The notes under the pieces were generated by a model, which saw only the letters and a program-made list of their open reading frames with translations, searched no databases and was not told the DNA's origin. 48,517 nt of DNA from Myxococcota bacterium (GTDB taxonomy: Bacteria > Myxococcota_C > UBA6777), in assembly GCA_023150835.1 (NCBI GenBank), contig JAKLKB010000044.1, forward strand, positions 1 to 48,517, read 5' to 3'. The position numbers and the translations under genes were made by a program. Shown here in pieces: positions 3,107-5,758 of the stretch (its first letter is position 1; each line of letters starts with the position of its first letter).

Positions 3107-5758
3107 TTATTTTCTATCGAGAGAAGTGCCGGGATAATTCGGGCTTTCCTTGGTGATATGGATATCGTGAGGATGGGACTCGCTTTGCCCCGCTGCGGTG
3201 ACGCGGTGGAATTGCGCCTTGGAGCGAAGCTCTTCGATGTCAGCAGCCCCAACGTACCCCATCCCTGCGCGTAAACCACCAAGATACTGCTGCAAGACGT
3301 CGCGCAAAGAACCCTTGTAAGGGACCAGCCCTTCGACACCTTCGGGAACCAAAGCCCGCTCGCTTGTCTGGCGATACCGCTCTCGCGATGCTTTGTGCTG
3401 CGTCATCGCCCCCAACGAACCCATCCCCCGATAATTCTTCCATTGCCGACCATTCAAAAAGATCCGCTGCCCGGGCGATTCCTCTGTCCCCGCCAACATA
3501 CTCCCCATCATCACGTTGTGCGCACCCGCACCGATCGCGATGGTGATATCGCCCGAAAAACGCAAGCCGCCATCCGCACAGATCGGAACCCCGCTGCCTT
3601 CCGCTGCTTTGGCGCAACGATACACCGCGCTGACCTGTGGCGAACCGATCCCTGCGATCACACGGGTCGTACAGATCGAGTTATGCACGACGGCGTTGTC
3701 TGCGATAAAGCTGTGATCTTCGCTCTCGACTTCTAGATCATACACAGGCACCGCACAGCCCGTCTCTTCGATGCTTTTGGGTTTACTGCTCTGATAAGAC
3801 GCCACCCGACGGCGAAGCGATCGCGCAAGGCTCGCACCATACAGCGAAGTTTGCGTGGCACGGCTTTCGAAAAGTCCATCCGAGGATGCGAGGTGCATCT
3901 GCACCGCAGGGAAAAAGCCATACAGTCGAGAGCAAAGCACGCCGAATAACTCGATCAGCCGAGGAGATGCGCTCATAAAGCTTTTTCGGCCATCCGCCTC
4001 AGCATGGCCGCCGCTTGCCATCAAGCCTTCAAAAAGGCCCGTCAGATAAGGCAGATCTTCCACCAAAAGAGCTTCGGGAAGATGCTTGTCTGCTTTTGTT
4101 CCAAGCTGCTCCAAAAGATCCGCAGCGGGCCGATAGAAAAAAGACAAACAAGCCATATCCTGTTTTTCTAAGTATCGGATCTTTAGCTCGGAAGTCATCG
4201 GAAAACAAGCTCGAAGCGCCTCCGCAAGTTTCTCTACATGATCTTGCTGTTCTTTTCCAAAGTACCCATACACACGACCACTGCGGCTTTTTCGATATAT
4301 CACACGATCCGCAAAACCGCCGCCCAAAAAACTCCCCAACACGAATCCCAAAGCAAAGGATGGCCGCAACACGGCCCCCACAACACCGACGCGCTCTTGC
4401 GGATCGTCGTCTTGGCGGCGTTCTAACAGCGGGATCGCAAAGATCTTGGGCATCGCAAACGCAAGTGTTTGTGGGAGCAAGAAGACCTCCTGCTGCACCT
4501 CGCCCACCGCTTTCCACGCCTGTTTCGGTGCATCTCCCTTCGGAGGACGGCTCATCCGTTGTGGAGAAGCATCCGATCGCTGCGCCCGTTGCGAACAGGT
4601 GCGAAGATCGCCCACCCAATAGCGATGATCGGCTGTTGCGTAGGTTGTTTTGTAAGAAAGCGCATGGCGCACCGCAACCACTGGCTTGATTCCTGTACAC
4701 CAAGCCTTTTTCACCAAAACGGGCTGCCCCGTGCCGCCCATCACCCAATCCCCCGCACGCACCGCCTCGATATCTTTGTATATGCCGTTGGCCATCAACA
4801 CCCGCGTCCCCGCAGCAAAACAACCCGGACCTTGGCCGACTTTGATCCCGTCCGCGCCCGCATCCACAAGACGCGCCACCGATTCAGGCTCAGAGATATT
4901 CCCAACGACCACTTCGACCCCTGACCAACGCTTTTTGATCTCACGCAACGTATCGAAAACAGGGCGTGAATCCGCATGCGCTGTATCGATCACCAAAACA
5001 TCTGCTCGCGCCTCCACCAGCTTTTCAGCACGCAACAGCGCCGCCTCTCCCGTCCCCAGCGCAGCCCCCACGCGCAACTGCCCGCGTGCGTCAAGATTGT
5101 ATTGTTTGGAAAGCCCTGACTTGACGCGCATCACATCGCTAAAGATATACAACCCCTTCACATGGCGCTGAGCATCCACCACAGGCAGCACTTTTTTCTT
5201 GTGCTGCTTCATCATCTCGTACGCTTTTTCGATCGATGTTCCTTCCTCTGCTGTAATCAATTGCGTGGTCATGATCTCGCGTACAGGACGCTCCCAACGC
5301 TCGCAAAAGTCGAAGTCATTTTTGGTCAGGATGCCCACCAGCTTGCCCTCACGCGAAAGCACAGGGAAGCTGTGAAATGGGAAATCCTCGACTGCCCGCC
5401 GCTCCATCACCTGCTCAACCGATTCATCTTCATAAACGCACATCGGAGACTCGATCAGCCCGTTGAGATGCTTTTTGACGCGGGCGATCTCTTGGGCTTG
5501 TTGTTCTTCCGACATATTCCGATGCACGATGCCCAAACCACCCAAACAAGCCATCTCTGTCGCCAAGGCATGCTCTGTCACAGTATCCATCGCTGCGCTC
5601 ACCACAGGCACGTTCAATGGAGTGTTGCGCGAAAACAGCGAAACAGTCGACACCTCGTTGGGCATCACTTCTGAATAGCCCGAACGAAGGCGTACATCGT
5701 CGTAGGTCAACGCTAGGCCAAGGCTCTCCATTTGCGCGAAAAAGTCTTCTTTTTTCAT
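3107..5758 (-). CDS. guaB: IMP dehydrogenase precursor interrupted by an intein
   Basis: IMP dehydrogenase oxidises IMP to XMP with NAD+, the committed step to GMP. The precursor is 883 residues. Residues 1-312 and 694-883 form a normal 502-residue enzyme with a CBS pair at about 100-215, the barrel motif [11 protein letters not shown], the catalytic loop SICTTR and the flap [10 protein letters not shown]. Residues 313-693 are an intein placed directly before the loop Ser, two residues before the catalytic Cys. The enzyme therefore cannot be active until splicing occurs. The start at 5758 follows GGGAGTG and lies 7 bp after the guaA stop. An in-frame extension to 5881 would run back through guaA and is unlikely. 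Confidence 0.96.
3680..4822 (-). other. Intein in IMP dehydrogenase with a degenerate LAGLIDADG domain
   Basis: The 381-residue intein begins [13 protein letters not shown] (block A) and has TADH as the block B Thr and His. It ends [15 protein letters not shown]...VVHN (blocks F and G), followed by Ser as the +1 residue. All splicing residues (Cys1, block B His, penultimate His, terminal Asn, Ser+1) are present. Between them, [15 protein letters not shown] and [19 protein letters not shown] resemble the two LAGLIDADG helices. The usual acidic residue at the helix end appears to be missing in both, so the homing endonuclease is probably inactive. The boundaries were checked codon by codon. Confidence 0.95.

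Follow-up and report, generated by a model that had tools for sequence, protein, structure and literature searches.

A class-1 intein with a decayed LAGLIDADG endonuclease domain in the catalytic loop of IMP dehydrogenase from a Myxococcota bacterium

The interrupted guaB gene

The window analyzed here (48,517 bp, contig JAKLKB010000044.1 of Myxococcota bacterium, assembly GCA_023150835.1) contains a guaB gene at positions 3107..5758 of the reverse strand, on which all window features described below lie. It was found as a single open frame of 883 codons plus stop, beginning with ATG, and comprised an N-extein of 312 amino acids (4823..5758), an insert of 381 amino acids (3680..4822) and a C-extein of 190 amino acids plus stop (3107..3679). 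The flanks matched the IMPDH equivalog model TIGR01302 (493.2 bits, cut-off 481.5) and PF00478 (446 bits), the latter in two pieces, and the two IMPDH pieces join exactly at GPG|SICTTR. The N-extein contains the start of the barrel and two CBS stretches and ends in KVGQGPG, and the C-extein contains both the loop Cys in SICTTR and the flap residues RY in RERYRQ. The host protein is a two-CBS-domain IMP dehydrogenase. A whole-genome search (7.56 Mb, 93%-complete genome) detected no second IMPDH-family (PF00478) locus. The purine genes purA, purD, guaB and guaA are clustered (276-9722), and in the sister species purF is also part of the cluster.

The insertion point lies between the Gly of GPG and the Ser of SICTTR in the catalytic loop. 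The insert starts with Cys1, the N-terminal splicing nucleophile of block A (4820..4822), contains a block B of the TxxH type (T63-A-D-H66; 4625..4636) and ends in the C-terminal splicing residues His380-Asn381 of the block G sequence VVHN (3680..3685). It is followed by Ser +1 of the C-extein (3677..3679), the second splicing nucleophile, which is the Ser of GPGSICTTR in empty-site relatives; the catalytic Cys of the enzyme is found at position +3 (3671-3673). Cys1, T63 and H66 were invariant and the splicing residues as a whole unchanged throughout a ten-sequence intein alignment. Besides, the insert matched PF05203 (Hom_end_hint; 35.8 bits, cut-off 32.1) and the intein C-terminal region model TIGR01443 (21.6 bits, cut-off 15.6). 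With a block A Cys nucleophile, TxxH, His-Asn followed by Ser +1 and a Hint fold, the insert is a class-1 intein with intact splicing residues. The initial annotation had placed an intein of 381 residues at exactly these coordinates, with all splicing residues present and a spliced enzyme of 502 residues, and the translation and alignment bear this out, as the 883-residue precursor minus the intein gives this length.

An AlphaFold model of the intein built from ten relatives (mean pLDDT 77, pTM 0.81) matched solved LAGLIDADG inteins from end to end (2cw7, Z 27.9; TliVMA, Z 26.5; PI-SceI, Z 19.3). Splicing-only inteins superposed at 1.8-2.2 Å (Ssp DnaB with Z 17.6 at 1.8 Å), and the endonuclease I-DmoI aligned to residues 154-336 (Z 12.9). 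Two LAGLIDADG helices were located at residues 156-168 and 257-271. The predicted fold is that of a full-length intein consisting of a Hint domain and a two-motif LAGLIDADG domain. This fold is shared with PI-SceI, TliVMA and Pho/Tko-type inteins (Z 18-28), but these are found in other host proteins and at other sites, and they contain the active-site acids that are gone in the guaB intein.

Endonuclease decay and selection in two sister species

The block C helix (4319..4357) contains Gly168 at the acid position (codon GGC, 4319-4321), and the block E helix (4010..4054) contains Ala269 at the corresponding position (codon GCA, 4016-4018), so that neither LAGLIDADG helix ends in a catalytic acid. 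In a profile alignment the aspartates of IGDG and LIDSDG of PI-SceI stood opposite Gly168 and Ala269, respectively. Block E of the window intein reads MASGG in place of xDSDG. Eight sequences from outside the genus were included in the intein alignment, seven from viral IMPDH/GMP reductase-family proteins and one from RtcB; the block E Asp was present in all eight (DSDG or DGDG) and the block C Asp in seven, with Asn in the viral contig L062 and an altered following residue in L066. PI-SceI no longer cleaves when either of its two acids is lost. Judged from these positions, the window intein should no longer cut DNA.

The genus is sampled by two species only, each represented by a metagenome-assembled genome. 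In the second, KLAP109 (Myxococcota bacterium; L003 = G001), guaB contains an intein at the same codon (406 amino acids, 86% identical), and the gene order purF-guaA-guaB-purD-purA is the same in both genomes. The KLAP109 intein differs from that of the window in being longer through a linker repeat and in keeping the block C Asp (LGDGF). This linker (L003:4400-4530) contains four near-identical 9-codon repeats (EEAEPQQNV), which are absent from the window intein. As Asp168 is kept in KLAP109 together with Ala269 at block E, the acid of block E was lost before the two species split and that of block C later. Codon 168 is GAT in the sister species and GGC in the window, and since this is a difference of two substitutions Gly168 does not result from one miscalled base. 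Inactivation of the endonuclease in this genus is, as far as these codons indicate, stepwise. The suggestion of the initial annotation that both helices lack the catalytic acid was thus confirmed by alignment of blocks C and E to PI-SceI and the relatives; its further proposal of a fixed, non-homing intein is well supported as to the loss of homing, given the loss of both acids, whereas fixation is only plausible, both sampled species of the genus (n = 2) being carriers.

The GTDB phylum sample consisted of five genomes, three of them from other genera. In two of these three, guaB was found uninterrupted (GQGPGSICTTR; extein identity 63-76%), and in the third no guaB match was obtained. As relatives of the same family read GPGSICTTR without interruption and the sister species contains the insert at the same codon, a chance insertion is excluded. 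Among 386 sampled prokaryote genomes, both the junction pattern in an IMPDH and a full-length intein profile match were found in this genus alone; the 382 other genomes showed no full-length intein member (two partial weak matches) and no IMPDH junction pattern. The scan of genome contigs was based on exact peptides and detects close relatives only. One junction-pattern match, in G108, was intergenic and was rejected as a chance match.

Between the two species, omega was 0.04 for the N-extein, 0.03 for the C-extein, 0.44 for the whole intein and about 1.1 for the linker. These values indicate that the exteins are under strong purifying selection, and since no second guaB was found a functional enzyme, and hence splicing, would be expected. 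With a single guaB found, its catalytic loop interrupted and its exteins strongly constrained, GMP synthesis would depend on splicing, and guanine salvage may be an alternative route to GMP. For the endonuclease part, omega was 0.27 (bootstrap 0.16-0.49), compared to 0.29 and 0.15 for the GyrB and SpoVR inteins of the genus. This value is well below 1, which counts against pure decay after inactivation; the endonuclease part appears to be still loosely constrained, perhaps through support of folding or splicing. Low synonymous divergence at both splice junctions was considered as a possible trace of gene conversion and rejected, as equally low windows were detected in guaA and purA.

Relatives on viral contigs and previous records of the site

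About ten distinct LAGLIDADG-bearing inteins were found in IMPDH/GMP reductase-family proteins on IMG/VR viral contigs of up to 394 kb. Those of L062, L064-L069 and L081-L083 have the identical insertion point, are 273-384 amino acids long and show 30-37% identity over the whole intein; no closer relatives were found outside the genus. Unlike the window guaB, their hosts have no CBS domains, and in contrast to the window intein their endonuclease motifs are mostly intact, the block E acid being nearly always kept; exceptions are L083, which is shortened, and the block C variants of L062 (LGNG) and L066 (LGDE). These relatives were detected by a degenerate HN-SICTTR junction pattern or by intein alignments, while a single-sequence intein search of the viral contigs and a tblastn search with the intein against plasmids and phages gave no match. 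Seven of the 11 viral contigs matching the HN-SICTTR pattern, as well as L057, were discarded as chance frames without IMPDH. Among the genes neighboring the interrupted genes on viral contigs are those for thymidylate synthase, DHFR, dUTPase, a DNA polymerase exonuclease subunit and phage-type ATPases, and these neighborhoods are in keeping with phage genomes. On a further viral contig, the 298-kb L071, an RtcB gene (1711-4473, forward strand) contains an intein about 31% identical to that of guaB, which suggests that this intein family can switch host gene.

Two other kinds of intein were detected at the site. The viral contig L041 encodes a fused mini-intein inside a CBS-bearing IMPDH, weakly similar to the window intein (BLASTP, E 9e-4, 20%). 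On the 210-kb viral contig L058 (4273-6147, reverse strand), a GMP reductase is split into two ORFs by an IMPDH-1-like intein (GPG^SVCTTR), the N part ending in a stop and being followed by a C part of 42 residues. On the viral contig L045 (3-503, forward strand), the end of an ORF encoding a Vsr-like nuclease overlaps the start of a C-intein/IMPDH ORF, a layout as in fractured genes that are accompanied by a separately encoded homing nuclease.

IMPDH-1 itself reportedly originates from the 'fractured genes' of ocean metagenomes, for which Dassa 2009 and Carvajal-Vallejos 2012 are said to be the sources. It is a metagenomic split intein with the native junction GGG-SIC (PMC11271493; PMC12350263), with Cys1 and Ser+1 and with parts of 106 and 42 residues (PMC11766414). 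The question left by the initial annotation, whether an IMPDH intein at this site is on record, is thus answered by IMPDH-1. The two inteins share an IMPDH-family host, insertion between G and SIC, class 1, Cys1 and Ser+1, but IMPDH-1 consists of two pieces and lacks a LAGLIDADG domain, whereas the window intein is contiguous and has one. No survey of IMP dehydrogenase or guaB inteins naming this site was found, and a partial literature search turned up no contiguous intein described at this position of a chromosomal gene in bacteria, for which we claim no priority. The window intein is a further case of a known kind at an already recorded site and is not unprecedented. With it, a site that was known to us from a biotechnological split intein gains a contiguous intein that lies on a chromosome and has a decayed endonuclease. 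On sequence evidence, one codon of the IMPDH/GMP reductase loop hosts at least three kinds of intein, many of them on viral contigs, namely LAGLIDADG-bearing inteins, a fused mini-intein and a split intein beside a Vsr-like nuclease. In large phages this position has apparently been entered by inteins repeatedly.

Origin and retention of the intein

In a tree of the exteins, the window guaB grouped with the uninterrupted IMPDHs of its own family (support 100/100), and four viral GMP reductase-like proteins formed a separate clade, whereas the bacterial guaB inteins grouped with viral-contig inteins only. This conflict between the extein tree and the intein relationships supports horizontal arrival of the intein. 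A phage is the likely source, and transfer would have been from phage to bacterium, although the relatives are only 30-37% identical and no donor was found among them.

We consider it very probable that the insert is a cis-splicing class-1 intein derived from a homing element, whose endonuclease has decayed in this genus and which has been retained in the sole guaB found. The precursor would be translated as one chain of 883 amino acids, in which Cys1, TxxH, His380-Asn381 and Ser+1 are predicted to perform ordinary protein splicing; the conserved residues and the fold suggest that this restores the GPG-SICTTR loop and releases a 502-residue IMPDH and the 381-residue intein. A phage-type homing intein, the LAGLIDADG domain of which once homed to the IMPDH loop, would have entered guaB in the ancestor of the genus, and loss of the block E acid before the divergence of the two sampled species would then have been followed by loss of the block C acid in the window lineage. 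Persistence of the intein may be explained by the rarity of precise deletion, since imprecise deletion would inactivate guaB and the host could not tolerate loss of splicing. The pair of sister species would thus represent a homing cycle in mid-decay, with one acid lost in KLAP109 and both in the window.

Retention of the intein as a post-translational switch, where conditional (for example redox-dependent) splicing would gate GMP synthesis, seems quite improbable to us. The insertion does adjoin the catalytic Cys, two residues past the junction, in a single-copy gene, the intein is retained in both sampled species, and its endonuclease domain is still open and under purifying selection (omega 0.27) after loss of the acids; moreover, splicing that depends on oxidation or zinc has been reported for other inteins (for example PMC6195587, PMC7360933). 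However, no regulatory feature was seen, active-site loops are usual sites of inteins, since homing targets them for their conservation, similar omega values were obtained for other inteins of the genus and other members of the family manage without an intein. Selection of the endonuclease-dead intein as a splicing-based GMP control, with the former endonuclease domain serving splicing or sensing, is improbable as well, although a role of this domain in splicing or sensing is hinted at by the persistence of its low omega after the acids began to go. That the endonuclease is still active, through other residues or as a nickase, and that homing continues, could be argued from the retained domain fold and the acid still present in KLAP109, but is very unlikely, as Gly and Ala occupy the positions of both metal-binding acids in the window intein, either loss being sufficient to abolish cleavage in PI-SceI. 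For the view that the insert is no intein but inert in-frame sequence or a product of misassembly we found no supporting point, and this explanation is close to negligible, as the independently assembled sister genome contains the same insert at the same codon, all splicing motifs and the whole-length fold are present, and empty-site relatives exist. Decay of a homing intein that presumably still splices is the reading we prefer.

Besides the inteins in guaB and in the UDP-glucose dehydrogenase gene, the window genome was found to be rich in inteins (G000 C43, C229, C225 and C40), with inteins in GyrB (454 amino acids, as delimited in this analysis), DnaE/PolIII alpha (449) and SpoVR (264) and a DnaB mini-intein. 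The UDP-glucose dehydrogenase genes of both species (G000:C235 = L075; G001:C489 = L089) contain a 204-amino acid mini-intein at GGS^C...HN^CFPKD, the +1 Cys of which should be the catalytic Cys of the enzyme. The two species share this mini-intein at 100% identity (dS 0.007, compared to 0.112 for the extein), which would reflect either recent exchange or unusual constraint. The DnaE intein showed a dS of 0.019, below that of its extein (0.084).
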